NCBI GenBank assembly: GCA_022763185.1
Contig: JALEGL010000005.1
Span: forward strand, 1-64,000
Length of the DNA stretch: 64,000 nucleotides
Reading direction: 5' to 3'
Source of the DNA: a bacterium
GTDB lineage: Bacteria > Bdellovibrionota_G > JALEGL01
Both the position numbers and the translations under genes were made by a program. The notes under the pieces were generated by a model, which was not told the origin of the DNA, ran no database searches, and saw nothing but the letters and a program-made list of their open reading frames with translations. Shown here piece after piece: positions 1,199-47,887 of the stretch. The first letter of the stretch is position 1; the number at the start of each line of letters is the position of its first letter.

Positions 1199-1891
1199 AT
1201 GCCAAAAAGACCATTAATCAGAACAGATGTTTTCCCTTACCATATTTATGCTAGAAGCAATAATAAAGATCCTTTTCCTATCCCCCTCAACCAAGTATGG
1301 GAAATATGCTTAAAATATTTTGAAAAAACACATGAACAGTACAAACATAAGACTTATGCTTTTGTATTAATGCCCAATCACTTTCATTTACTAATAAAAA
1401 CACCTTATGCAAACATAGATAAAATCATGCATTACTGGATGCGAGAAGTTAGTAAATCCATCACGTATCGTGCACAGAGAATCAACCATATTTTTGGTAG
1501 TTCATATAAGTGGTGTATTATTCAAGACAGTATTTATTATTCTAATATATATCGCTACATTTATAGAAATCCAGTCAAAGCAAATTTATGCCCCAATGTA
1601 GAAATGTATCCCTACTCTTCACTAAAATATCTCCTGGCTCCTGAAATAAAACCTCACTTTTACCTTTTTGATGATGAATATATTGAGCTGTCAGAAATAA
1701 TACCTCGCAACATACAAAAAAGACTATCTTGGTTAAATACTTGTTTTTCAGCAAAGGAAAGTGAGTTAATTAAAAAAGGATTAAATAGAACTGTATTTGC
1801 TTATTCAAAAAGTAGGCGTTTTTATAAAGTAAGAGATCATTTAATTAAATACCCTTTGGGTTTATCTACAACTAAGTACCCAAAGGTATGA
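1199..1891 (+). CDS. REP-associated tyrosine transposase (RAYT), Y1 HUH family
   Basis: Single-strand DNA transposase/endonuclease of the IS200-like Y1 superfamily. Visible motifs are MPNHFHLL with the metal-binding HUH pair at His61 and His63, and a Tyr-rich helix at 113-122 ending in RNPVKANL, where the family carries its nucleophilic Tyr. At 230 residues it has the RAYT length, and no TnpB partner is present. RAYTs are single-copy domesticated transposases that bind and cut REP hairpins. Here one palindrome lies just upstream (1119-1151) and another overlaps the 3' end (1874-1908). The last codons (Tyr-Pro-Lys-Val-stop) are inside the second palindrome. Base composition resembles the neighbours, so this looks like a resident element. 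Catalytic residues appear intact. Confidence 0.88.
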   Translation: MPKRPLIRTDVFPYHIYARSNNKDPFPIPLNQVWEICLKYFEKTHEQYKHKTYAFVLMPNHFHLLIKTPYANIDKIMHYWMREVSKSITYRAQRINHIFGSSYKWCIIQDSIYYSNIYRYIYRNPVKANLCPNVEMYPYSSLKYLLAPEIKPHFYLFDDEYIELSEIIPRNIQKRLSWLNTCFSAKESELIKKGLNRTVFAYSKSRRFYKVRDHLIKYPLGLSTTKYPKV

Positions 1892-16923: not shown

Positions 16924-16952
16924 TACTTGCATTGACATGATTGAATATCCCC

Positions 16953-18758
16953 ATGTTTAAAGAACTCATCACGCAAATAAAAAAAAGAAAATTGGTCGGT
17001 ATTTTTATTGTCGGTGTTTTTTTATTGTTATGCTTTACGCGGTTTTATCAATTGGGAGACAAACCCTACCACCACGATGAATCACTGTATGCAAAATACT
17101 CTTATGATTATGCCACACAAAATTTTTACCGCTTTAACCCTATTCTTCATGGACCCATGCTTTTTACAGTACAAGCTTTGTGCTTCAAAGTTTTTGGCGA
17201 CTCAGATTTTACCGGCAGACTTGGCAGTGCCTTATCAGGAATAATCCTGATTTATTTATCGTGTTTTTTATTGTTTTTACTTTTTAAAAGCCTCAAGCCA
17301 GTTTTGGCTTTTCTGACCTTAACAACACTCTCTCCTACCCTAAGTTATTTTTCCAGGTTTTTAGGCATGGATATGCTGCTGAGTATGTTGTTTGTTGCCT
17401 GCCTTGCAGCTCTTTATCAGTTTTTACACAGCAAAAAATCGTTTTATCTATTCAACAGCTTTATCTTTGCCTCATTCATGGTTTGCACAAAACTCAACTA
17501 CTTATTTTATTTTTTCTTTTTATTCAGTTTTCTTCTTGTTTTATACTGCTACAAACGTGAAAGTTTCAGCAATATTCATCAGACTCTGAAATCTTATTTT
17601 ACTGAGCACAGGTATATTAAAATAAGCTTTCTCATTGCCATACCGATTGTGATTTTTTCCCTCCTTTACTCTGGTTTTGGTCAACACTGGCCAGGTGTTT
17701 TAGATGGGCTTTACCGAGAAATGCTACCATACTGGATCAATCAACATAAAATTCAACGTATTCGAGGCCCCTTTCATTACTACCTACCTTTGCTTTTACA
17801 ATACGAATTGCCTGTTGTTTTGGGAATGGTGTACTATTTTATCAAAATCATCACTTCTTCTAAAGCCTCTATACGTCAAAGTCTTTGGGTTTTTCTGATT
17901 TGCAGCATTGTTTTCGTTTTAATTAAGGTGTTTTGGGAAACAACTTTTTCTTCTCTTTTGAGTATCTTTCACTTTAGTCAAGCCTACCATTTTCTTATTT
18001 TAGCTTTTTATATTTTTGCTGGGTTTTCCATGACCCTTTACCACTTAAAAAACAAGCAACACTTTTATGCGTTTTGTATCTTTTGGTTTTGGGTTTCTTT
18101 AAGCCTATACAGTTACGCAGGAGAAAAAGTGCCTTGGCTGCTGGTTCATATTCTTGTTCCAGGATTTTTATACCTAGCTCCACAGATCAGCAAGACTGTT
18201 AACAACAGCTTAAACCATGTTCTTCAAAAAAGACTCTTAGGCTTAGGTCTGGTTATCCTTATCAGTTGGCAATTGTTTAATGTATATCGAGCTAATTTTA
18301 TTTTTAGCGCGCACCCAAAAAATTTACTGGCCTTTACCCATACCTCCTGGGAAACTAAAACCATGGTCAACAAACTGTTGGCGTGCAAAAAAACCAATCC
18401 AGATATAAAAATTGAAACCCTAAATGCCGCATCAAGTATATGGCCCTTATCTTGGTATCTAAGACATTATCATGGCTGGTATACGGTCAATCAAAATCCA
18501 AGTTTGGATAGCCGTATTTTTATTCAAGACTGGAGCAGACGAGAAACCCTTCAACATCCACAATTGAGTCAATATACACCCTATCGATATAAACTTAGAG
18601 AATGGATGGTCCCTCATCAAACCTACAGTGACTTCAGTGCATATTTAAAGTATCTGTTTTTTTGGCAAGCCAAAGACCCAGAAGGTTCACTGGATAGCGT
18701 TGTTTATGTTCACCCCAATGCTTTAGACTGTTGGATTAACCATGGCAAACAACGCTGA
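16953..18758 (+). CDS. PMT/ArnT-like membrane glycosyltransferase (TIGR03663 family)
   Basis: Polytopic GT-C glycosyltransferase of about 600 residues with some ten to twelve membrane segments. The first periplasmic loop holds YHHDESLYAKYSYDY, with the acidic pair expected of the polyprenyl-phosphate-sugar-dependent PMT/ArnT class; RFLGMDMLLS follows in the next loop. The pattern matches the TIGR03663 group, which is often annotated as flippase-activity associated, but substrate and acceptor are unknown. I start at ATG 16953 rather than TTG 16941. The 3' end overlaps hemW by 17 bases, so they are probably co-translated. No close pathway partner is adjacent. Confidence 0.75.
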   Translation: MFKELITQIKKRKLVGIFIVGVFLLLCFTRFYQLGDKPYHHDESLYAKYSYDYATQNFYRFNPILHGPMLFTVQALCFKVFGDSDFTGRLGSALSGIILIYLSCFLLFLLFKSLKPVLAFLTLTTLSPTLSYFSRFLGMDMLLSMLFVACLAALYQFLHSKKSFYLFNSFIFASFMVCTKLNYLFYFFFLFSFLLVLYCYKRESFSNIHQTLKSYFTEHRYIKISFLIAIPIVIFSLLYSGFGQHWPGVLDGLYREMLPYWINQHKIQRIRGPFHYYLPLLLQYELPVVLGMVYYFIKIITSSKASIRQSLWVFLICSIVFVLIKVFWETTFSSLLSIFHFSQAYHFLILAFYIFAGFSMTLYHLKNKQHFYAFCIFWFWVSLSLYSYAGEKVPWLLVHILVPGFLYLAPQISKTVNNSLNHVLQKRLLGLGLVILISWQLFNVYRANFIFSAHPKNLLAFTHTSWETKTMVNKLLACKKTNPDIKIETLNAASSIWPLSWYLRHYHGWYTVNQNPSLDSRIFIQDWSRRETLQHPQLSQYTPYRYKLREWMVPHQTYSDFSAYLKYLFFWQAKDPEGSLDSVVYVHPNALDCWINHGKQR

Positions 18759-29061: not shown

Positions 29062-30261
29062 ATGGGGTTGATGCATCTTCTGGAAAGACTGAAAAAATTC
29101 ACGTACTCGGATACGATGAAAGAAGCAGGCATATATCCTTATTTTAGACCCGTTAATAAAAGTGACGGCCTTCATGTGGAAGTCAATGGTGAAAAAAAAC
29201 TTTTGGCCTGCTCTAATGACTATGTTTCCTTGTCGACCGATCCTCGTGTTATTGAAGCCTCTGATCAAGCTTTAAAAAAGTATGGAACTTCTTGCAGTGG
29301 CTCACGCTTTCTCAACGGTAATACAATAATCCATGATGAACTGGAAGAAACATTGGCTGACTTTCTTGGCTATGAAAGTTGTGTGGTTTTTAGTACTGGT
29401 TTTTTTGCCAACTTGGGTAGTTTGACCGCCTTATCTACTAAGAAGACCGTTATTTTCAGTGACAAAGAAAATCATGCCAGTATTGTTGATGGCAACAACC
29501 TTTCCTTGGCTAAAGTGTGCCGGTACCACCACAATGACATTGAACGCTTAGAATCCTTATTAAAAAAATACGAAGATACCGAAGAAAAAATTATCGTTTC
29601 TGATGGTGTATTTAGTATGACTGGTGAATATGCTCGTCTTCCTGAACTCGTTGAACTCTCCAAAAAATACAAGGCTTTTTTATACATTGACGATGCACAT
29701 GGCATTGGCGCTGCTGGGAAAGAAGGTAAAGGCACAGAACAACATTTTAATATGACTGATAGTGTTGACCTTAACATGGGGACATTCAGTAAATCTTTAG
29801 CATCTATTGGAGGTTATGTCGCCAGCAATAGGACTGTGATTAATTACATCAGACATCATGCTAGGGCCTTAATTTTTAGTGCCAGCATCCCTCCTGCCAG
29901 CGCAGCTGCAGCTCTTAAATCTTTACAAATCATTCGTGATGAGCCTGAACGTGTTAGTCGTTTGCATAAAAATACAGAGTATGCGCGCCAACTATTTAAT
30001 GAATATGGCTTTAAAGTTCCTGAACATGGCGGACCCATTATCCCAATCATTCTTGAAGGCGACAATGACATGAACTTCACCTTTAAGTTCAACCAGGCAC
30101 TTTTTGATCATGGTATCTTTTGTGCTCCCGTTCTCCCACCTGCTGTACCCATGGGGACAACGCTCATCAGAACAAGCTACATGCATAACCACACACCTGA
30201 ACAAATTGAGTTCATTGTAGAATGTTTTAGAAAAGCCGCTAAAGACCTAGGTGTCTTTTAA
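29062..30261 (+). CDS. spt: Alpha-oxoamine synthase of the serine palmitoyltransferase type
   Basis: PLP enzyme that condenses an amino acid with an acyl thioester. Key parts: GTSCSGSRFLNGN (75-87), the DDAHG cofactor segment (210-214) and the PLP Lys244 in TFSKSLASIGGY. The segments HHARALIFSASIPPASA and PVLPPAVPMG followed by RTSYMHNHT are closer to bacterial serine palmitoyltransferase than to Kbl or BioF as I recall them. The product would be 3-ketosphinganine. The facing genes (epimerase-type SDR, GNAT acyltransferase) match the other two ceramide enzymes. The start may be the ATG at 29071. No dedicated acyl carrier protein gene is visible nearby. Confidence 0.72.
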   Translation: MGLMHLLERLKKFTYSDTMKEAGIYPYFRPVNKSDGLHVEVNGEKKLLACSNDYVSLSTDPRVIEASDQALKKYGTSCSGSRFLNGNTIIHDELEETLADFLGYESCVVFSTGFFANLGSLTALSTKKTVIFSDKENHASIVDGNNLSLAKVCRYHHNDIERLESLLKKYEDTEEKIIVSDGVFSMTGEYARLPELVELSKKYKAFLYIDDAHGIGAAGKEGKGTEQHFNMTDSVDLNMGTFSKSLASIGGYVASNRTVINYIRHHARALIFSASIPPASAAAALKSLQIIRDEPERVSRLHKNTEYARQLFNEYGFKVPEHGGPIIPIILEGDNDMNFTFKFNQALFDHGIFCAPVLPPAVPMGTTLIRTSYMHNHTPEQIEFIVECFRKAAKDLGVF

Positions 30262-31224
30262 TTTTTTTCTTTTCAATGATCTGATCAAAAGTACGCCAGC
30301 TCCATTAATCATATAAATATAGTAGGTAAAAAATCGCCATAAAAATAAACTTAAAGCCATGTTATGAGCAGGTATTTTATTTTCATAAATCAGTACAAAG
30401 GCAGCTTCAAAAGATCCTCCGCTAATCGGCAAGGGTGTTAAATGCAAAGAGTTAAACATCAGAAACTGTGGAACATAGATATCAACAGGCAATAATGAAT
30501 AGCCTAACATGCATGCAATCAACCACAATATACTGAAACGATTAAACCACCACACAAAAGTTATGCCTACATAGATAAAAAATCGTAACTTGCCATAATT
30601 GAGTATATTTAAAAAATAAGCTCGAGCTTGAATGTATTTTTTAGCCAAATTAATTTTTTTAAATTTTCTCTGTACGCCAACCAAAAAAGAATACGTAAAT
30701 TTTTTACTAAAAACCATCAAAAATAAAATAATACAAAAAACTATAAAAAACACTTTGATCAAACCCGATAACTTATCTTGCAATTGATCATATTGAGTTT
30801 GAGAAAAGTACAGGATCAGTGAAATTGAACTGATTAAATAAACAAGATCAATGGTATTTTCTATACCTATGATTGAAGCTGCTTTGACCTTTGGAATATT
30901 AAATTTTTGTAAATAATACCAACGGCTGGGCTCACCTGCCATTCTTGAAGGTGTAATACTGGAATAAAAATCTCCCAAACTTGCTACCTGAAAGGTTTTA
31001 AATACGGCTACTTTTTCTTTCAACAAAGAAGCCACCTGTTTCAGCCTGAAAGCACGCAGCCATAAATCTAGTGTAGACAATGCCAATAATAAAAAAAGAT
31101 ACCGCCAGTTCAACTCAGATAATGCTTGCTGATCAATAGGAAACTTGCGAAACACATAAATCGTTATGGCAAGCAAGCTGACCGCTGCAAAAATATATTG
31201 AACTACTGTAAAAAAACGCTTCAT
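30247..31224 (-). CDS. Flippase-like integral membrane protein (LPG synthase TM / UPF0104 family)
   Basis: About 325 residues with six to eight membrane helices. The SRMAGEPSRWYYL segment and the PISGGSFEAAFVLIY loop near the C-terminus are typical of the lysylphosphatidylglycerol synthetase transmembrane family (AglD/UPF0104), which lacks the synthetase domain and is proposed to move lipids. I chose the ATG at 31224; an upstream ATG at 31293 would overlap the acyltransferase gene. It follows that gene by ten bases and its 3' end overlaps the convergent spt-like gene by 15 bases. Transport of a sphingolipid precursor is an inference from context. Confidence 0.72.
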   Translation of the reverse strand: MKRFFTVVQYIFAAVSLLAITIYVFRKFPIDQQALSELNWRYLFLLLALSTLDLWLRAFRLKQVASLLKEKVAVFKTFQVASLGDFYSSITPSRMAGEPSRWYYLQKFNIPKVKAASIIGIENTIDLVYLISSISLILYFSQTQYDQLQDKLSGLIKVFFIVFCIILFLMVFSKKFTYSFLVGVQRKFKKINLAKKYIQARAYFLNILNYGKLRFFIYVGITFVWWFNRFSILWLIACMLGYSLLPVDIYVPQFLMFNSLHLTPLPISGGSFEAAFVLIYENKIPAHNMALSLFLWRFFTYYIYMINGAGVLLIRSLKRKKLKDT

Positions 31225-31234
31225 TGATACTTGA

Positions 31235-32383
31235 TTAGCAGCTACCCGTATAAATGCGGTGAGTTTTATAATGCACTCCCTTAGAACTTTCAATGGTTCC
31301 TAAAATAAGTTGATTATCTTCATGAACCCAACCCACTTCGCAGGCTGAAAAGCCGCAGCCACTTAATTTTTGTTGAGCATGGGATAATAGGGCTGCTTCT
31401 AAACCCTTTTTACGAAATTTTTTTCGAACCCCAAAAGCCATCAATCGTGCACTTTTAATACTCTTCTTCTTAAATAAAAGATTCAATACTCTATAGATAT
31501 CACTTTGGCCAAAATAACCCTGCTCTACTTTTAACAGCTCGTTAGCATTTGGAATTAAGCCTGAGACCCCAATAGGTACACCTTCTTTTTCAGCAAACAA
31601 AAACATTTCCGGAATAATAATAGGCTTAATACTATCTGCTATAATGTCTGCTTCTTCCTCACTCAATGGAACAAAGGTCCATAAATCTTCCCAAGCTTCA
31701 TTGTATATATCTACAAACGTTCTGATATCCTGCTTAAAGTTTTTTAACGATACTGGCCTAATACTGATTTGATTTCTTTTTAAAATTCTTTGTGCTAGCT
31801 TTGAGTAACGTGCTTCTCTGGATTGCTCTTCAACAGGTACATAAAATGAGAGCAAGTCTTTGGCTTTTTCAAGGCCAACTGAATGCAACAAGTTATCATA
31901 ATAATCGAAATTGTATGTCATTTCAATATAGGGACTTAGATCAAAGCCTTTGACCAAGACACCACAAGTGTGATTGTAAGTAAAGTTATAGGGCCCTATA
32001 AAAGATAGTACCCCTTTTGTTTTTAACCATGCTTTTGCATGGTCAAACAGTTGTTGTGCAACTTCTGCATTGTTGACACACTCAAAAAACCCAAAAAAGC
32101 CAACTTTTTGCTGTTGATACTTATTGTAAGCATGATTGATAGAAACCGTCATGGTTGCCAAAACCTGATCTTCTTGTTTAACCATCAAAAAAACTGTTTC
32201 TGCATCTTGATGAAAAGGAAACTTTTCTTCAAACATACCAACTTTTCCAAGCAGACTTGCACCCAAGTAGTCCATTTTAAGTTTAGGTACCCATTGCTTT
32301 TCACCTTGGTACAACTTAAATGGAAACTCTACAAAGTCTCTGAGCAAAGTTTTATCTTCTAGTCTGAACTCAATAACACGCAT
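31235..32383 (-). CDS. GNAT-type acyltransferase, candidate bacterial ceramide synthase
   Basis: Protein of 382 residues of the large two-lobed GNAT-like family that begins with a FVEFPFKLYQGEKQWVPKL segment, then VGFFGFFECVNN, the GPYNFTYNH block and a final MAFGVRKKFRKKGLEAAL acyl-CoA-binding loop. Bacterial ceramide synthase (bCerS of Caulobacter) is, to my knowledge, in this broad family. It would N-acylate 3-ketosphinganine. The ATG shares one base with the stop of the epimerase gene (TAATG), so the two are coupled. Function is inferred from family and neighbourhood. Confidence 0.6.
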   Translation of the reverse strand: MRVIEFRLEDKTLLRDFVEFPFKLYQGEKQWVPKLKMDYLGASLLGKVGMFEEKFPFHQDAETVFLMVKQEDQVLATMTVSINHAYNKYQQQKVGFFGFFECVNNAEVAQQLFDHAKAWLKTKGVLSFIGPYNFTYNHTCGVLVKGFDLSPYIEMTYNFDYYDNLLHSVGLEKAKDLLSFYVPVEEQSREARYSKLAQRILKRNQISIRPVSLKNFKQDIRTFVDIYNEAWEDLWTFVPLSEEEADIIADSIKPIIIPEMFLFAEKEGVPIGVSGLIPNANELLKVEQGYFGQSDIYRVLNLLFKKKSIKSARLMAFGVRKKFRKKGLEAALLSHAQQKLSGCGFSACEVGWVHEDNQLILGTIESSKGVHYKTHRIYTGSC

Positions 32384-33372
32384 TATTTTAACAACCCCTG
32401 TTTCTTATACCATTGTATGGTTTTATCAAACCCTGTTTGCAGGTCATACTGACACTCAAAACTATGTTGATGCTTTATCTTGTTGGGAGAACACGTCCAT
32501 GCTGCTGCCAACATCTCTTTGTATTTATCTGAATTATATGGCTGAGGTTTTGAAAAGGTATTTGCAATCCAATCTGCTACTATGGCAACAAATTTAAAAA
32601 AAACTTTGGGTAGTTTTATAACTCTGATTTTTTTGACCTTTGCAGCCTTTTGAAATTGATTGATGATGTCTTGCATGCTGTACAATTGTGGGTCTGAGAC
32701 ATAAAAAATAGTTTCTTTCCCTACTTTTTGAGCATCAAGCATGCATTGAATTGCTCTACAAAAATCTTCGACAAAAACCATACTGTAATACTTTTCTTTG
32801 CCCTTCATTTTTAAAGCCAAGCCTTTACTTAACAGCTTAAATAAATCCAACAATTGATAGTCATACGGTCCATAAACAATTGGTGGCCTTAAAATGACTT
32901 TTTCACCAGAGTAAGCATGCTCTAAAAAAGCTTTTTCTGAACGATGTTTGCTTTCTCCATAAAGGCTAATCGGTTGATTAATTTGGCTTTCATGCTTACA
33001 TTCTGCCACATCCCCAGATTGTGTAGGCCCAGCAGCAGCCAAGGATGAAATTAAAATAAAGCGCTTTAAATTTGGATTATGCGCAAGCACGGCATCCAAC
33101 AATTTTTTTGTTCCTTCTACGTTGACTCGATCAAAAGCCGCTTGATCCTTAGCTTTGACACAGCCCGCCAGATGCACAACCATATCCTGTTCAACAACAG
33201 CTTGTTTTAAAGCTTTCTTATCATGCAAATCACCAAGAATTTGCTTGATAGACGTATGGTCGAGCTTTTTTTGTTTACGATTAAGAACGGTAATTTGATA
33301 TTGAGCCGGATCAAGGTGCTTTAATAAGTTTTGCCCAATAAAACCGGTACTGCCTGTAATCAAGATCTTCAC
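32383..33372 (-). CDS. NAD-dependent epimerase/dehydratase-type SDR, candidate ceramide reductase
   Basis: Extended SDR of 329 residues with GSTGFIG (7-13) for NAD(P) binding, an SSLAAAGP strand, and the catalytic Tyr138-x3-Lys142. The N-terminus and length are those of the family that includes CerR, which reduces the 3-keto group during bacterial ceramide synthesis, but also of sugar epimerases and 3-beta-HSD-like enzymes. It is the first gene of a minus-strand unit with the acyltransferase and the flippase-like protein. The pathway call rests on the neighbours. Confidence 0.65.
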   Translation of the reverse strand: MKILITGSTGFIGQNLLKHLDPAQYQITVLNRKQKKLDHTSIKQILGDLHDKKALKQAVVEQDMVVHLAGCVKAKDQAAFDRVNVEGTKKLLDAVLAHNPNLKRFILISSLAAAGPTQSGDVAECKHESQINQPISLYGESKHRSEKAFLEHAYSGEKVILRPPIVYGPYDYQLLDLFKLLSKGLALKMKGKEKYYSMVFVEDFCRAIQCMLDAQKVGKETIFYVSDPQLYSMQDIINQFQKAAKVKKIRVIKLPKVFFKFVAIVADWIANTFSKPQPYNSDKYKEMLAAAWTCSPNKIKHQHSFECQYDLQTGFDKTIQWYKKQGLLK

Positions 33373-35703: not shown

Positions 35704-36639
35704 CTATTTAAGTTTTAGTTTTTTTAAGATAAAAACGCTGTAAAACAAAAAATTAACCAGCTTGTTCAATGCAGCTATCATTATGAAAATAGCCATAATT
35801 TCAGCTTGGGAAACAGCATATATTTTTGCTACATTTGCATATACCCCTAACAAGACAATATCTTGACTTGGTAAGAAAGGAATTCTAGTAAAAATAATTT
35901 TTACGGCTAAAAATGTAAACCATATACTGTATGGTATTTCTGGTAGAACCACCACACATTGTAAAACTGATAAAGAATAAACAATAATTAGCCTAAACAT
36001 GTGAATGAAAAAAACTTTTACTGTTGTGTTACTATCAAAATTGATAATTTTTTTACGAAAAAAAATAAAGCTAAGTAAAATTAATCCTACAAAACCAATA
36101 ATCGATAGCCAGGTCGTTTGACTAATATTAAAAAAGCTTAAAAAACCAATTTGTTCAAAATGCACTAATGTGACCAGAAGAACTAAAGCTGTAATAAATG
36201 ATGAAAATGATGAAATAATATTGTTATCTTTTATGATTCTAAATAATTCTAATTTATTTTTTCCCCAGTGTTTAACACCATAATTGAACAAGTAAGCTTC
36301 GCCTGAATACGAAATTAAATCAAAATTTAAAATTTTCTTGACTAAAAAAACTCTAATCCCTCCCCAAAAAGGAATATTTACAAAACAACTATAAATTAGC
36401 TGTTCCGAGAGTGGTAAGGCAATATAGGTGATTAAAAATAAAATATAAAAGTAAGGTGTTATTGGTAACGATGCCAATACAGATTTCCAACCAATTTTAC
36501 TGATTTCAAAAAAAAGATATATTGATATTGCAACAGTAAAAATTATTTTTAAACTTTTCAGTAAAGTTCCCCCAAAAGGGGTATTCCTAAATTGAGAAAA
36601 TTTTTCAAAATTTTTCTGAATTTTTGTAATATTGATCAT
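35704..36639 (-). CDS. Polytopic membrane protein, possible flippase-like (UPF0104-like)
   Basis: Protein of 311 residues with about seven or eight membrane helices. It resembles the lysylphosphatidylglycerol synthetase transmembrane family, with a RIPFLPSQDIVLLG loop near the C-terminus where that family has its conserved Gly-rich loop, but is more diverged than the gene at 30247. It is 42 bases downstream of the glycosyltransferase-like gene and probably in one unit with it. Substrate unknown. Confidence 0.5.
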   Translation of the reverse strand: MINITKIQKNFEKFSQFRNTPFGGTLLKSLKIIFTVAISIYLFFEISKIGWKSVLASLPITPYFYILFLITYIALPLSEQLIYSCFVNIPFWGGIRVFLVKKILNFDLISYSGEAYLFNYGVKHWGKNKLELFRIIKDNNIISSFSSFITALVLLVTLVHFEQIGFLSFFNISQTTWLSIIGFVGLILLSFIFFRKKIINFDSNTTVKVFFIHMFRLIIVYSLSVLQCVVVLPEIPYSIWFTFLAVKIIFTRIPFLPSQDIVLLGVYANVAKIYAVSQAEIMAIFIMIAALNKLVNFLFYSVFILKKLKLK

Positions 36640-40622: not shown

Positions 40623-43073
40623 ATGATTTACAAAACAATTATAAACCAACTCTATAAGAAAAAAATTCTAAAATACATTTTAAGGCATCCTATAAAATAT
40701 AGTGTCTGGCTCATGCTATGTTTAGTGCCAAGTTTAATTTTAGTTCAAAAACTTAAAATTAACAGCGATTTTAAATTTTTACTCCCCCAAGACAAACCAA
40801 GTGTTCTGGCTATGAACCTTTTAAAAACACGTAGACAAGAAAGTACGCAGCTTTTATCGATTATTCTTGAAAGCGATGATAAAGATCTCATTGTTAACAC
40901 TATTGATACTTTAGTTCCTCAACTACAAAAAATAAACAAAACATTCATCAAAAAAGTTAACTATACCATATCGGATGCAAAAGACTTTTATGAAAACAAC
41001 AAGTATCTTTACCTTGAGCTAGAAGACATAAAAACCATTCGTCAACGACTTAAAGCAAAAATCAAACATGAAAAACTTAAAAATAACCCTTTGTTCTTTG
41101 ATATAGAAGATAAAAAAGTTGAATTTGATATTTCAGATATTGAAGAAAAGTACAAAAACAAAGATTCACAACAAAACAAATACTCCCCAGACCAGTTTTA
41201 CAAAGGCTACTTTTTCTCTAAACAGCAAGACTATGCCATTATCATTGTTCAACCTGGCACTGCAATTAGCGGTATTGCCGGCAATGAACGCTTAATTAAA
41301 AAAGTAAAGCAAACCATAGAGCAAACCTTTCCCAAAGCAAAACGTCAAAACATAAACATTGAGCTGTCCGGCTCGCTTTATGAAACTGTCTATGAATATA
41401 AAACTCTTATTCAAGACATGCTTTCTACTCTCATTTTATGCTTGTCTTTGGTGTTTTTAATTTTATTTTTTTATTTTTTAAATTTTCGGATTGTCTTATT
41501 TTTAGTTGTTCCTTTGATATACTCTGTTTTAACTCTGATGGGAATTGCCTATTTTTGTTTTGATTATTTAACCTCTATCACTGTTTTTCTTATGAGCATT
41601 ATTGTGGGTAATGGTGTTAATACAGGTATTTTGTTGTTATCAGCTTACTTCACTTTTTCTAAAGAGCATCAATCAAAATACAAAGCCTTTTTAAAAGCCA
41701 CCGACAAAACTGTTTTTTCTACATTTTTTTCTGCCATCACCACCTCTTTGGCATTTTTATGTTTGTACTTTTCAGAAATCAATAGCTTACGACAGTTTGG
41801 TGTGGTTGGCTCAATCGGTATTTTTCTAGCTTGGATAGCCAACTTTATGATTTTACCTTTATTTATATTCAACAGTCCCGTTAGAAACATTCAAGGTAAA
41901 GTAAGAACTTTTTTCACCGGCATTGCCCACACCATCAGCGAGACCTTCGCTAGCTTTATTCAAAAAAGCTACCCTGCGCTTGCCCTACTGTTAACGCTTT
42001 TTCTTTTGTCAACCATCATTCCCATTACCAACTATATACCCAACTCATTAGAATATGATTTTTCAAAATTAAGAAATAAAGTCAGCAACCCAGTTTTCAA
42101 AAAAGCCAACAATATATTTAAAGAAGTTAATCCAAGCGTTGTACTTTTTGATCAAGATAATAAGGCTTTTTGCGATGATATAAGCAAAACCATTGATAAA
42201 AATGACCCCGACAATTTGCTCGACAGATGTGAAACAGTTTACTCTTTTCTTCCAGAGCAACAGGATCAAAAACTAACAGAGCTTAATAAAATAAAATCTT
42301 TACTCAATGATAAATCAATTAACTTTTTAAATAAAAGTGAAAAAAAAGACCTTGTTGAAATTAAAAAAAATCTAGCAAAGCTTGAAAAAATTTCAGCTGC
42401 CAATTTGCCAGAGTTAATCAAAAATAAATTTAAAGAAAATGAAACAACATACAATACCATTGCCTATCTTTATCCTGTTCGATCAAAATTAGCGCATAAT
42501 TCAAAAAATCTTGTTTTATACACTCAAGATATTCAACAAAGAACCGCTAAAGTTGGGAATGCCGTTGTTGCAGGGCAAAGCTTCATTCTTGCGGATCTTA
42601 TAGCCGCTATCAAAAAAGATGCCCCTAAAACTACACTCTTGTCTTTACTGATCATTTTATTGATTATCATCGTTTTTTTACCTCGGCATCTCATGCTGTA
42701 TATGACCATTTCAGTTTTTTCATCGTTTCTTCTCATGCTCTTTGCCCAAGTAATTTTCAATATTAAATTTAACTTTATTAACTTTGTTGCTCTTCCTATT
42801 AGTTTTGGAATTGGTATTGACTATGCTATTAATTTTTTCTATCAACTCTCTAAACGGCAATCTAATTTAGCACACATCATTCAAAATACTGGCTCTGCCA
42901 TCATTGTCTGTTCAATGACAACTGTCGTTAGCTACCTATCTTTAATTAGTGCCAATAGCCAAGCTTTGGCCTCTTTTGGTAAACTGGCTTTAATTGGAGA
43001 GTTTTCCAGCTTGTTTGTTGTTTTTATTGCTTTACCCTCGTACTATTTTCTCATGACAAAGAAAAAACAATAG
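40623..43073 (+). CDS. RND/MMPL-family exporter
   Basis: Protein of 816 residues with the duplicated MMPL layout: a helix, a periplasmic loop, then five or so helices, twice. The first bundle contains IIVGNGVNTGILLLSAYF in helix 4, and the second has SFGIGIDYAINFFY. The second keeps the Gly-x-x-x-Asp-Tyr pattern of the proton relay; in the first, Asp is replaced by Asn-Thr. The HpnN branch of this family transports hopanoids and related lipids between membranes, so a lipid cargo is plausible. Co-transcribed with the beta-barrel gene 6 bases upstream. Confidence 0.8.
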   Translation: MIYKTIINQLYKKKILKYILRHPIKYSVWLMLCLVPSLILVQKLKINSDFKFLLPQDKPSVLAMNLLKTRRQESTQLLSIILESDDKDLIVNTIDTLVPQLQKINKTFIKKVNYTISDAKDFYENNKYLYLELEDIKTIRQRLKAKIKHEKLKNNPLFFDIEDKKVEFDISDIEEKYKNKDSQQNKYSPDQFYKGYFFSKQQDYAIIIVQPGTAISGIAGNERLIKKVKQTIEQTFPKAKRQNINIELSGSLYETVYEYKTLIQDMLSTLILCLSLVFLILFFYFLNFRIVLFLVVPLIYSVLTLMGIAYFCFDYLTSITVFLMSIIVGNGVNTGILLLSAYFTFSKEHQSKYKAFLKATDKTVFSTFFSAITTSLAFLCLYFSEINSLRQFGVVGSIGIFLAWIANFMILPLFIFNSPVRNIQGKVRTFFTGIAHTISETFASFIQKSYPALALLLTLFLLSTIIPITNYIPNSLEYDFSKLRNKVSNPVFKKANNIFKEVNPSVVLFDQDNKAFCDDISKTIDKNDPDNLLDRCETVYSFLPEQQDQKLTELNKIKSLLNDKSINFLNKSEKKDLVEIKKNLAKLEKISAANLPELIKNKFKENETTYNTIAYLYPVRSKLAHNSKNLVLYTQDIQQRTAKVGNAVVAGQSFILADLIAAIKKDAPKTTLLSLLIILLIIIVFLPRHLMLYMTISVFSSFLLMLFAQVIFNIKFNFINFVALPISFGIGIDYAINFFYQLSKRQSNLAHIIQNTGSAIIVCSMTTVVSYLSLISANSQALASFGKLALIGEFSSLFVVFIALPSYYFLMTKKKQ

Positions 43074-43111: not shown

Positions 43112-44275
43112 TTAGCTCTTGATTATCTTTTTAAAAACGTCCACATATTCAGAGGCCATATCTTGCCAAGATGAACAATGTTCATCAGTAAATTTTTTAT
43201 AGTGTCGTGCTAGTGTTTCTCTTTGCTGATCATCTTTTAATAATTCAACAACTCTTGTTTTCCATTCATCAATATCTTTTGACATTAACAACTCACCATT
43301 TTTTTTATGGCTAATTGCTGAAGGAATCCCATCAACATTGGCTGCTAGACATATTGTTTTAGATGATGACGCTTCTAAAGTCACTAAGCCAAAACCTTCA
43401 TAGTCCCCATGCACTTTTATATTAGGCATCACAAATAAATCTGCATACTGCAGAAGTATTTTAAGCTCTTTATTAGAAAGATTGCTCAAACGGATAATAT
43501 TAGGATTATTTTTTTGTAAGTCTTTTATGTTTAAATCATCGGTTGGAACACCAAGAAGAAATATTTTTTGAATCAATTTTTTAAGAACAGGAATATTCAG
43601 TAAAGTTTTGTATAATTTTGGTTTTTCTAGCTTTGGCCCCACAATCACATAAGCTATAGAGCTGTCTAAAGATGGAACAATATTTTTTCCAAACCACGAA
43701 AAACCTTTGCGTACGACTGGTCTACCAATAGACAAAATCACTTTTTTATATTGCTTTAAACCAAACTTTTCTATCGTTTCATTAATATCTTCTTTAGAGA
43801 ACTTTTGAATGGGTTCTAGAGAAACGCCGTTTTTGACTGGAAATATTTTTTCTTCCACAACTCCACGTTTCATCAACTCTTCCCCAGTTTGAAAACTAAC
43901 TGGAATAACCGCACTTAATTTTTTTAAATTATTCTTAAGCCAGCGTTGGTAGAAGGTATTGGGATAAACAACATCAAGACCATGTACGGTGACCACAATA
44001 GGAGTGGTTATTTTTTTCAAAACAGGAGTAAGAAACAACAGCATGATGAGATCATTGATATAGATCAACTCTATATCCGGATGACGCTTTAATAAACCCA
44101 GTACTTTTTTTCCAGCTGTCAAAAAGAACCATAGCTTGCTACCTACACTTTGATAAATATGTTTGTGAACAGTATGCTCTTTTTCTAAGCGTGAAACCAA
44201 CTCGTAACATTGTTTTTGCATGCCTCCTGTAGAAGGTGGGTACTGATGCGCAAGCACTAAGATTTCCATGCTCAT
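43112..44275 (-). CDS. Glycosyltransferase family 4 enzyme
   Basis: GT-B retaining glycosyltransferase of 387 residues. N-terminal LAHQYPPSTGGMQ loop at about 7-19, and the C-terminal nucleotide-sugar motif EGFGLVTLE with the E-x7-E pair at about 295-303, followed by AANVDGIP. Two Met codons open the frame; Met3 may be the start. Separated from manC by 80 bases, same direction. Acceptor unknown; the manC gene upstream suggests GDP-mannose as donor. Confidence 0.85.
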   Translation of the reverse strand: MSMEILVLAHQYPPSTGGMQKQCYELVSRLEKEHTVHKHIYQSVGSKLWFFLTAGKKVLGLLKRHPDIELIYINDLIMLLFLTPVLKKITTPIVVTVHGLDVVYPNTFYQRWLKNNLKKLSAVIPVSFQTGEELMKRGVVEEKIFPVKNGVSLEPIQKFSKEDINETIEKFGLKQYKKVILSIGRPVVRKGFSWFGKNIVPSLDSSIAYVIVGPKLEKPKLYKTLLNIPVLKKLIQKIFLLGVPTDDLNIKDLQKNNPNIIRLSNLSNKELKILLQYADLFVMPNIKVHGDYEGFGLVTLEASSSKTICLAANVDGIPSAISHKKNGELLMSKDIDEWKTRVVELLKDDQQRETLARHYKKFTDEHCSSWQDMASEYVDVFKKIIKS

Positions 44276-44355
44276 GTGCTTATCATAAATAAAAATGTTG
44301 TCCCAGATCTTCTTACGACCAGGAGCACAAACAAAAAATAAGTTTAATCTTACAT

Positions 44356-45801
44356 CTATTTATTTGCCCGGCCGTAAACATCTTCAAGGCGAACAATATC
44401 ATCTTCACCAAGGTATCTTCCATATTGAACTTCTATCAAATGCAAAGCTTCCTTCCCTGTATTTTCAAGACGATGAGATGCTTCTTTAGGAATATATACT
44501 GATTCATTTTCTTTTAAGATTTTTTCTTCATTGTCAATGGTAACCAACGCAGTTCCACTGACAACGGTCCAATGTTCTGAGCGGTGATGGTGATATTGAA
44601 GAGATAGCTTGTGGCCTGGGTTGACAATAATACGTTTGACTTGATGTTTCTCACCTTGATCAACACTTTCATACGATCCCCAAGGTCTATGGACTATTGC
44701 AGGTTTTTTATACTCATCTCTATCGGACTGCTTCAGTTGCTCAGCAATACTTTTAACCTTCTGAGCTTGACTTTTTGTTGCAACCAATAAGGCATCTTTG
44801 GTATCAATAACAATACTTTCTTCTAAGCCTATAACTGCAATTAAGCGATCATGCCCATGGACATAGGTGTTTTTGGTATCTTCTGTAAAAACATTGTTGT
44901 TGTTTTTAATATTTCCATCTTCATCTGCACGTGCTGTTGATAAGTCAGAGATCGCATTCCATTCACCGACATCGCTCCAGTCAAAGGCAGCTTTGATGAC
45001 AATAGCATCAGATGTATTTTCCATAACAGCATAGTCAATTGAAATTGATGTACATTGAGAAAAACTATTTTGCTCAGGGTGAATAACCTTATTGTCTTGT
45101 TTAGCCTTATCCATAGCTTGTTTTGAGTTTTCAACAATGTCTGGGTGAAACTGTGCTAGCTCTTTTATATAACTGTTTGGTGTAAACATAAACATACCAC
45201 TGTTCCAAACATAGTTATTGGTCTTTAAAAACTCTTCAGCCGTTTCTAAACTGGGCTTTTCTTTAAAGTTTTTGATCTTAAACCCATGATCTGTTTCAGA
45301 ACATTGTTCCCCACACTCTATGTAACCATAACCTGTATGTGGAGATTTTGGCTCAATCCCCATGGTGACCAATTGATCTTTTTGAGCATAACTTACGCCT
45401 TCAAGGACTGTTTGATTAAAAAGTTCTTTTTGAATAATTTTATGATCAGATGGCATCACAAACATACAAGCGTCACTATCCTTATCCATTAAACTTTGTG
45501 CGGCCAGCGCAATAGCGGGCGCAGTATTTTTAGCTTCAGGCTCTAAAATGATCGCTGTATAATCCAAGCCTATGGCATGTATTTGACTTTTAAGAAGATG
45601 TTCAAACCTTTGATTAGAAATAATGATCGGTGGAGCATAGATTTCTCTATTGGAAGTAAGTTCAAGGGTTTCTTGCAACAAACTTTTATCAGAAAAAAAA
45701 TTAATAAACTGCTTGGGCAAATCTTCTCTAGAAACCGGCCATAGACGCGTTCCTGAACCTCCGCATAAGATCACAGGATATATTTTACTTAACTTTGACA
45801 T
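44356..45801 (-). CDS. manC: Mannose-1-phosphate guanylyltransferase / mannose-6-phosphate isomerase (ManC type)
   Basis: Bifunctional enzyme that makes GDP-mannose. N-terminal pyrophosphorylase motif GGSGTRLWPVSR and KEKP signature; central MPSDHKI; C-terminal cupin isomerase with RPWGSYE, HHHRSEHW and the VYIPKEASHR segment. 481 residues, full length. I start at the ATG at 45801, with AAAGAGAG upstream; a TTG is three bases before it. Supplies mannosyl donor for the adjacent GT4 enzymes. Confidence 0.95.
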   Translation of the reverse strand: MSKLSKIYPVILCGGSGTRLWPVSREDLPKQFINFFSDKSLLQETLELTSNREIYAPPIIISNQRFEHLLKSQIHAIGLDYTAIILEPEAKNTAPAIALAAQSLMDKDSDACMFVMPSDHKIIQKELFNQTVLEGVSYAQKDQLVTMGIEPKSPHTGYGYIECGEQCSETDHGFKIKNFKEKPSLETAEEFLKTNNYVWNSGMFMFTPNSYIKELAQFHPDIVENSKQAMDKAKQDNKVIHPEQNSFSQCTSISIDYAVMENTSDAIVIKAAFDWSDVGEWNAISDLSTARADEDGNIKNNNNVFTEDTKNTYVHGHDRLIAVIGLEESIVIDTKDALLVATKSQAQKVKSIAEQLKQSDRDEYKKPAIVHRPWGSYESVDQGEKHQVKRIIVNPGHKLSLQYHHHRSEHWTVVSGTALVTIDNEEKILKENESVYIPKEASHRLENTGKEALHLIEVQYGRYLGEDDIVRLEDVYGRANK

Positions 45802-45862
45802 CAACGCTCTCTTTAAATGATTCTTTGTTCAACACTTTGACTTTTCCCCCATAGCAAAAGCT

Positions 45863-46690
45863 TTACTTAGCTGGTGTGCTTTTTTTGGCGTCCTCATTTT
45901 TTTTGTTGCTTGCTTCAGGCTTAATGCTCGACTCAAGCTTCTCTTCCTCTGCATTGGATACTAGCGATTTTTCTTCTTCCTTATTTTTAACTGGCTTTTT
46001 TTTAGGTTTTGTCGCCTCTTTTAATAAAATAAAATCATCATAATCCGCTATGGCATGACCTTTCTTGATGCGCTCTGAATCAGTTAAAATACCAAATGCC
46101 ATGGGGCTTTTCACTTTATCGGTTTCAAAGTATTTTTGATAATCTGCCAATACATCTCTTTCTTCGGTAATCCACTCTCCCATACCATCTTTTCCTGATC
46201 GAATCACAATCAAAACCTGTGGATTTTTTCCGGTTTTATAAACATGCTCTCCTACAGGCTCATTTTCTGCCCAGACATATTTTATGGTTTGAAAACGCAA
46301 TGGGATCAAACTTTTTCTAAAAATAATATAAACTGAAGCCGCACTGTTGTTGGGCTTTGATAATGGCTTACCGCCTTTTGGGTGCTGATGCACACGCCAA
46401 CGCCAGGACATAATAGGTCTATATTTTAAACTCCAACCTTTAATTTTAAAGGCAGCCACTGCCTTTTTCTGACTGTCCGCATGCAAAAATAAATTGTTAT
46501 CTTCTTTAACAATAGAGTAGATATCTTCAGCTTCACCTTTTATGTTAGAGACATGCCAACCATTAAAATCTACTTTGCCAACACTTTGTCTTTCAAAATC
46601 CTCTAAAATTATTTTTTCTTGCGCCCACGCGCTCACTGCTAGAAATAGGACTACTAAACTCTTTAAAATATGTATTTTTTTAAACATCAT
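45863..46690 (-). CDS. DUF3047 domain protein, exported
   Basis: Protein of 275 residues with a signal peptide to about AWAQ (residue 23). The DUF3047 core spans about 27-220: WRWRVHQHPKGG, SAASVYIIFRKS, and the final HAIADYDDFIL. The C-terminal 45 residues are a Lys/Glu-rich low-complexity tail, likely disordered. DUF3047 folds as a beta-sandwich like carbohydrate-binding modules but no enzyme activity is known. Located between manC and a GT4 gene, so a cell-envelope polysaccharide connection is possible. Confidence 0.8.
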   Translation of the reverse strand: MMFKKIHILKSLVVLFLAVSAWAQEKIILEDFERQSVGKVDFNGWHVSNIKGEAEDIYSIVKEDNNLFLHADSQKKAVAAFKIKGWSLKYRPIMSWRWRVHQHPKGGKPLSKPNNSAASVYIIFRKSLIPLRFQTIKYVWAENEPVGEHVYKTGKNPQVLIVIRSGKDGMGEWITEERDVLADYQKYFETDKVKSPMAFGILTDSERIKKGHAIADYDDFILLKEATKPKKKPVKNKEEEKSLVSNAEEEKLESSIKPEASNKKNEDAKKSTPAK

Positions 46691-46696
46691 GCGTGA

Positions 46697-47887
46697 TTAT
46701 CCCAACTTTCTGTTTTTTTGCAAAGGAACAGTCAGATTTAGCAAATCTTTATATACGTCTATCACTACCTGATTGACCTGATCCCATTGCTTGGTTTTAG
46801 CATAAGCCAATGCTTTTTCTTTTAAGTTTTGCCTTTTGTTTAAGTTTACAACAAGTTCCTGAATACTAGCTGAATAGGCTTGGATATCATCTTGAGAAAA
46901 AATATAGCCGGCTTGTGATGCTTTAACAATTTCCTGACATCCTCCCTGATTTGAAACCATTGCAGGGCAACCACTGGCCAAAGCTTCTTGGACAACTTGA
47001 CCAAAGGTTTCCGTGGTGGAAGGAAAAAATAAAACATCCGCACTGGCATAATATTGCCCTATTTTTTCTGGCTTGATGCTGCCAAAAAAATGCGCTTTGG
47101 GCATTTGATTTTTTAAAGCCTCTTTAGCTGGACCATCGCCAACAAAACAAAATTTAATTTTTTTAAACAGTTCTGGCTTGTGTAAAGACAAATCATCGTA
47201 GACTTTTCTAATGCATTCAAGGTTTTTGTACCAAACCATGCGCCCGACGTATAAGACATAAAACTTATCATCCCCACCCCAGCTTTGTCTCAACGTAACA
47301 TTTCTTTTATCCGGAGAAAATTGTTCCTCATCTATGCCTCTACTCCATATTTTTAAGGCATGATTTTCTTTGCTTTTGTCCAGTCCAGTAATACCGTGAC
47401 TTAACAGTTCATCTTGAATAATTTTAGTAGGGGTAAAAACGGCGTGACATTGATTGTAATGCTGTCTTAGTTTTTTCCACAACCAGTTCTGTAAAAACCC
47501 TAACTTGTAATACGGCAAGTAAGATGGAAAATGCGTATGAAAAGATGCCAGTAAAGGAATATCATGCTTTTTGGCATATTTGGCTGCACCATGTCCGGTT
47601 AAATCAGGTGTAGATACATGAATAATATTAGGCTTAAATTGTTCTAAAGCTAAGCGTACTTTTTTAGAAAAAAAACCAACCTTGTACTCTGGATAGAAAA
47701 ATATTGGAATAGATGTCACTTCAAATACGGAAAGGTGAGAAGAATCAAACTTATCCACACAAGGAGAAAAAACCATATGCTCAATACCTTGCTTACTGAG
47801 GCTTTTGGACAGTTGAATAAGAGAACGTGCACTCCCATCTGATTTTTCCTTAAACATGCCCGCAAAAATTGCAACTCTCGGTTTCAT
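46697..47887 (-). CDS. Glycosyltransferase family 4, alpha-mannosyltransferase-like
   Basis: GT-B enzyme of 396 residues. N-terminal FAGMFKEKSDGSARSL; central HVSTPDLTGHG and ASFHTHFPSYLPYY; C-terminal VGRMVWYKN and the FPSTTETFGQVVQEALASG block with the E-x7-E pair. This arrangement is that of the GDP-mannose-dependent alpha-mannosyltransferases such as MgtA and PimB relatives. It lies upstream of the DUF3047 gene (six bases apart) and manC in one minus-strand unit. Acceptor may be a glycolipid; not known. Confidence 0.85.
   Translation of the reverse strand: MKPRVAIFAGMFKEKSDGSARSLIQLSKSLSKQGIEHMVFSPCVDKFDSSHLSVFEVTSIPIFFYPEYKVGFFSKKVRLALEQFKPNIIHVSTPDLTGHGAAKYAKKHDIPLLASFHTHFPSYLPYYKLGFLQNWLWKKLRQHYNQCHAVFTPTKIIQDELLSHGITGLDKSKENHALKIWSRGIDEEQFSPDKRNVTLRQSWGGDDKFYVLYVGRMVWYKNLECIRKVYDDLSLHKPELFKKIKFCFVGDGPAKEALKNQMPKAHFFGSIKPEKIGQYYASADVLFFPSTTETFGQVVQEALASGCPAMVSNQGGCQEIVKASQAGYIFSQDDIQAYSASIQELVVNLNKRQNLKEKALAYAKTKQWDQVNQVVIDVYKDLLNLTVPLQKNRKLG

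Follow-up and report, generated by a model that had tools for sequence, protein, structure and literature searches.

A putative ceramide biosynthesis locus with a linked flippase-like gene in a deep-branching bacterial phylum near Myxococcota

A 64,000-nucleotide stretch of bacterial DNA (the window) carries four intact genes within positions 29062-33372 (spt, a flippase-like gene, bcerS and cerR), and this locus very probably serves to synthesise ceramide (N-acyl sphinganine), the backbone on which bacterial sphingolipids are built (probability about 0.87, with enzyme activities and substrates predicted from sequence). In the proposed pathway, Spt would join serine to a fatty acyl thioester (probably acyl-CoA) in a condensation that yields 3-oxo-sphinganine, the tandem-GNAT protein bCerS would add the N-acyl chain, and the short-chain dehydrogenase/reductase (SDR) CerR would reduce the 3-keto group. 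The PF03706 protein of the cerR-bcerS operon would then most likely move ceramide, or a lipid derived from it, over the inner membrane, the direction of transport being likewise a prediction. A first-pass annotation had proposed a complete ceramide locus here and had named a competing identity for each of the three enzymes; all three were tested, none turned up, and the ceramide reading is supported. The word "complete" holds for the ceramide backbone and not beyond it, as no headgroup enzyme was identified.

If this reading is right, a small deep-branching phylum near Myxococcota joins the likely sphingolipid makers. Of the named genomes tested, one from Myxococcaceae comes closest, with 67% identity in RpoB, which points to a deltaproteobacteria-like lineage; the phylum itself was sampled through five genomes. 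The gene set is compact enough to be cloned whole, and its linked PF03706 gene offers a concrete candidate for the flippase step, stated as unidentified in the literature (PMC11087976).

Layout of the locus and its surroundings

The arrangement described in the first-pass annotation, an Spt-type gene converging on minus-strand SDR, GNAT and flippase-like genes, was found as placed, and its family calls were borne out by Pfam (aminotransferase I/II, epimerase-type SDR, GNAT and PF03706, Table 1). On the minus strand the genes are read in the order cerR, bcerS, flippase-like gene. A single base is shared between cerR and bcerS, while the 3' ends of the convergent spt and flippase-like genes overlap by 15 bases. 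The open reading frame listing starts the flippase-like gene at a TTG (30247-31293, 348 aa), but translation more probably begins at the ATG at 31224, 10 bases past the bcerS stop. From this spacing we infer that cerR, bcerS and the flippase-like gene form one tight minus-strand operon. A promoter and terminator scan of the locus gave a site count no higher than that of shuffled sequence, so the transcription units are drawn from gene spacing.

Table 1. Features of the locus and of the rest of the window
Feature	Position	Strand	Product length	Assignment
spt	29062-30261	+	399 aa	aminotransferase I/II; putative serine palmitoyltransferase
flippase-like gene	30247-31224	-	325 aa (from ATG at 31224)	PF03706 LPG_synthase_TM / TIGR00374
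bcerS	31235-32383	-	382 aa	tandem-GNAT N-acyltransferase, YghO/CC_1154 family (putative)
cerR	32383-33372	-	329 aa	NAD(P)-dependent epimerase-type SDR; presumed 3-oxo-sphinganine / oxidised-ceramide reductase
MMPL/HpnN-like RND lipid transporter	40623-43073	+		PF03176; HpnN 162 bits
glycosyltransferase group	43112-47887	-		two GT4 glycosyltransferases, ManC-type enzyme, DUF3047 protein
GpgS-like glycosyltransferase (in the group above)	46697-47887	-		GT4; GpgS-like, 132 bits
membrane protein	35704-36639		311 aa	no Pfam/NCBIfam match
Agl23-type membrane protein	16941-18758			"flippase activity-associated"; TIGR03663 238 bits, cut-off 126
transposase-like protein	1199-1891			IS200/Y1-type, single gene

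Elsewhere in the window, the Agl23-type gene adjoins a radical SAM gene and the gene for the 311-aa membrane protein adjoins a Nucleotid_trans glycosyltransferase gene. The glycosyltransferase group converges on the MMPL gene.

Identity of the three enzymes

Among NCBIfam models, the spt product matches the Bacteroidetes-type Spt model NF047600 best (479 bits), followed by BioF (381 bits) and then by other alpha-oxoamine synthases. The score lies below the curated NF047600 cut-off of 640 bits, which was reached in none of the 58 genomes searched with that model. Among solved structures the Spt entries 8guh and 3a2b come first (about 1e-110); Sphingomonas Spt, cysteate enzymes and those of the Kbl/BioF type match far less well. 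In a maximum-likelihood tree the protein falls inside a 32-member clade (support 99/99) that includes the Spts of Sphingobacterium, E. coli BL21 and Sphingomonas together with the sampled bcerS-linked Spts, its nearest kin being proteins of another genome of this phylum (G004) and of an Oligoflexia bacterium (L100). E. coli Kbl, E. coli BioF and a paralogue from the same genome (C14:335 kb) lie outside this clade, and the paralogue is Kbl-type, joining Kbl in a group of four. The catalytic Lys244 sits in TFSKSLASIGG, and K244, H138, D210 and H213 are invariant in the alignment. These results support the assignment of the gene as a putative serine palmitoyltransferase, in agreement with the first-pass call; a BioF/Kbl identity, and with it a biotin-synthesis match, is ruled out by the NCBIfam ranking and the clade placement.

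Which acyl donor would such an enzyme use? No homologue of AasR, the Rhodobacteria-type acyl-ACP synthetase, was found in the genome (best match 26 bits over 66 residues), which makes the Rhodobacteria-type acyl-ACP route the less likely one; Spt probably uses acyl-CoA instead. No candidate AcpR open reading frame of at least 100 aa borders spt, a size above that of an ACP, which is only about 80 aa long.

The bCerS candidate is the sole member of its GNAT family in the genome. It aligns with E. coli YghO over 97% of its length (25% identity, 5e-44), with a Streptomyces protein whose gene is flanked by an Spt-like gene and an SDR gene (30% identity, 2e-74) and, also full-length, with a Sphingomonas protein. 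In E. coli, YghO (ECD_02850) is listed as corresponding to Caulobacter CC_1154, an N-acyltransferase needed for ceramide (PMC9386255); the comparison here was made directly with YghO, CC_1154 being linked through that listing. An AlphaFold (AF2) model built with 41 sequences (pLDDT 89, pTM 0.88) predicts a tandem-GNAT fold, matching 5kf1, 2wpw and mycothiol synthase, and its closest folds are glucosamine N-acetyltransferase, other tandem GNATs and mycothiol synthase. The gene thus encodes a putative bCerS, as the first-pass annotation had it, and belongs to the YghO/CC_1154 family. No match to an arylamine acetyltransferase was seen.

For CerR, a profile was built from the ceramide-cluster SDRs of E. 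coli, Sphingomonas and Streptomyces, with the window protein excluded. It scored the cerR product at 209 bits against 69 bits for the next among the three top paralogues of the same genome. In the reverse comparison, which covered selected E. coli stretches, a part of that genome, the SDR of the E. coli ceramide cluster came out best with 91 bits, RfaD reaching 13, and identity to the counterpart ECD_02852 is 26% (3e-33). E. coli BL21, Sphingomonas and Streptomyces served as reference organisms for the enzyme comparisons, standing in for Caulobacter. The protein keeps the GxTGFIG and YGxSK motifs. Among its matches are also the NDUFA9-type complex I subunits 6gcs, 7zm7 and 8b9z, and a likeness of CerR to such subunits has already been described (PMC11087976). 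The Rossmann motif lies within the first residues of the product (MKILITGSTGFIG) and no cleavable signal peptide was seen; Caulobacter CerR is reported to be periplasmic (PMC11087976). The CerR-type assignment proposed earlier is therefore supported, and a sugar epimerase identity is not.

A CerR-like SDR does not accompany every such locus. The spt and bcerS genes are adjacent with no CerR-like SDR nearby in G004 (L136) and in the Oligoflexia bacterium (L100), and spt likewise adjoins bcerS with no such SDR nearby at five Elusimicrobiota loci (L062, L067, L084, L089 and L105). Across the whole G004 genome only weak and partial SDR matches were found (best 28% identity, E 3e-9). CerR is thus not a fixed part of the module, as G004 has retained the other three genes (spt, bcerS, flippase) without a closer SDR; where it is missing, another reductase may do the keto-reduction.

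The linkage of these genes recurs across bacteria. Loci were surveyed with the GNAT family alone as query, one genome per species, giving 80 named loci from many phyla (8 further loci were left out of the counts). An spt gene lies within 6 kb of the GNAT gene in at least 66 of the 80 and a CerR-like SDR in at least 51 of the 80, lower bounds given that many contigs are short; both are that close in 49. Since the search used the GNAT family only, this linkage argues that the adjacency of spt, bcerS and cerR is not due to chance, and it marks the set in the window as a standard bacterial ceramide locus. The three ceramide genes have been described as often clustered, with potential sphingolipid producers in about 40 phyla (PMC11334938).

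Two other explanations of the enzyme genes have to be weighed. The genes might be neighbours by chance and encode household enzymes that have nothing to do with each other (BioF/Kbl, a GNAT acetyltransferase and a sugar epimerase), and generic library searches do return generic GNATs for the acyltransferase and sugar epimerases and HpnA for the SDR, the latter far under the cut-offs; the Spt tree, the reciprocal CerR scores, the repeated linkage and the separate Kbl-type paralogue of the genome all oppose this, leaving it largely refuted and very improbable indeed. It is somewhat easier to imagine, yet still improbable, that the three enzymes together produce a related lipid, with alanine or glycine giving 1-deoxy-ceramides, or cysteate giving capnine-type sulfonolipids. 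The choice of amino acid among alpha-oxoamine synthases is set by few residues, and homology of the spt product to the cysteate acyltransferase 28eh can be recognised in the structure database (215 bits). The Sphingobacterium Spt scores higher, at 373 bits, and the position within the Spt clade speaks against this alternative too. Synthesis of the ceramide backbone from serine remains the preferred reading.

The flippase-like protein and a possible export module

Proteins of the PF03706 family include flippase domains of lipid-modifying systems. The product of the fourth gene scores well over the Pfam gathering score for this family (112 against 33 bits, 2e-32) and over the cut-off of TIGR00374 (88 against 43 bits); a single-sequence structure prediction was uninformative (pLDDT 47). 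G004 has one PF03706 homologue (33% identity). Its gene is an immediate neighbour of spt and bcerS, and it begins within the last part of a gene for an HpnN/MMPL-type lipid transporter. No flippase-like homologue was found in G001, a genome without bcerS, or in the Oligoflexia genome, and a plasmid search with the protein gave no match. Among the loci examined across phyla, the link between PF03706 and ceramide genes was found only in the window and in G004. The MMPL gene of the window lies 7 kb from the cluster and its product is 25% identical over its length to the G004 homologue; it is tentatively placed in a lipid-export module. An MMPL/RND transporter gene is also found divergent from spt at three Myxococcaceae loci (L046, L058 and L097).

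The flippase or transporter for these bacterial sphingolipids has been stated as not known (PMC11087976), CC_1166 is named only as a potential flippase in Caulobacter (PMC11324152), and a literature search found nothing on a ceramide flippase or on PF03706 with sphingolipids. What, then, might the fourth protein move? The gene neighbourhood in two genomes suggests that it carries ceramide or a ceramide-derived lipid across the inner membrane, a tentative assignment to which we give not quite an even chance. A broader proposal, that it is the missing inner-membrane flippase of sphingolipids and that with an HpnN/MMPL RND pump it replaces the LptFG2-type route proposed for Caulobacter, appears rather unlikely.

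The serious rival for the fourth gene is a different substrate, such as a glycolipid with an aminosugar, as in GpgSDF/HexSDF systems, or a polyprenyl-linked sugar, and this has a real chance of being correct, if again one below even. Such a role would not conflict with the other three proteins making ceramide. The flippase-like protein does match GpgF, a family of glucosaminyl-PG flippases (NF053789), at 70 bits under a cut-off of 320, and the window holds the GpgS-like glycosyltransferase gene of Table 1. An aminosugar lipid is a serious candidate on account of G004: there, two genes for GpgS-like glycosyltransferases and one for a GpgD-like deacetylase are found about 4 kb away from the flippase gene. 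Against it stand the position of the window PF03706 gene as the third in the cerR-bcerS operon and the lack of any GpgD (deacetylase) homologue in the genome. Transport of ceramide or a derived lipid is preferred here. The stretch of G004 at L136:1614-8474, with two GpgS-like genes, a GpgD-like gene and an HpnN-like MMPL gene beside spt and bcerS, is in itself a possible aminosugar-lipid and export module.

Comparison with known systems

The ceramide genes of Caulobacter crescentus are spt (CC_1162), cerR (CC_1164) and bcerS (CC_1154) (PMC9386255, PMC11324152, PMC11087976). The same three enzyme families are present there, clustered, and CC_1166 is put forward as a potential flippase; the candidate in the window belongs to PF03706. 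Caulobacter differs in having AcpR as a dedicated acyl carrier protein and AasR as acyl-ACP synthetase, whereas no AasR homologue was found in the genome of the window, and in having a second LptFG set. Its cerS gene lies in a separate operon, while cerR and bcerS of the window appear to share one.

In E. coli BL21, the cluster yghO-aasR-epi-acpR-spt (ECD_02850-02854) holds homologues of all three window enzymes (25-33% identity). It also contains AcpR and AasR; in the window cluster AasR is absent and no AcpR-like open reading frame of at least 100 aa lies beside spt. The GpgSDF system of Pseudomonas aeruginosa (PMC12713373) resembles the window in that its lipid-synthesis genes are followed by one for a flippase-like protein, broadly of the family seen here. 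Its product is glucosaminyl-phosphatidylglycerol and not ceramide, and the deacetylase has no homologue in the genome studied here.

Clusters in Myxococcota, Acidobacteriota, Gemmatimonadota, Nitrospirota, Ignavibacteria and other groups (L038-L117) carry the same gene set within 6 kb as the window. Their linked membrane protein is often PAP2-type: a PAP2_3/PAP2_C-type gene lies in or beside the cluster at 22 of the 80 loci, among them loci of Acidobacteriota (L042:2909-3802, L049, L063, L068, L080 and L094) and Gemmatimonadota (L076, L086, L087, L101, L107 and L117). These PAP2 proteins are candidate ceramide headgroup transferases or phosphatases, of the sphingomyelin or inositol-phosphorylceramide synthase kind. 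In the window the linked protein is instead of the PF03706 family. The core three-gene cluster is already known and ordinary, and it is only the possible lipid mover that is new.
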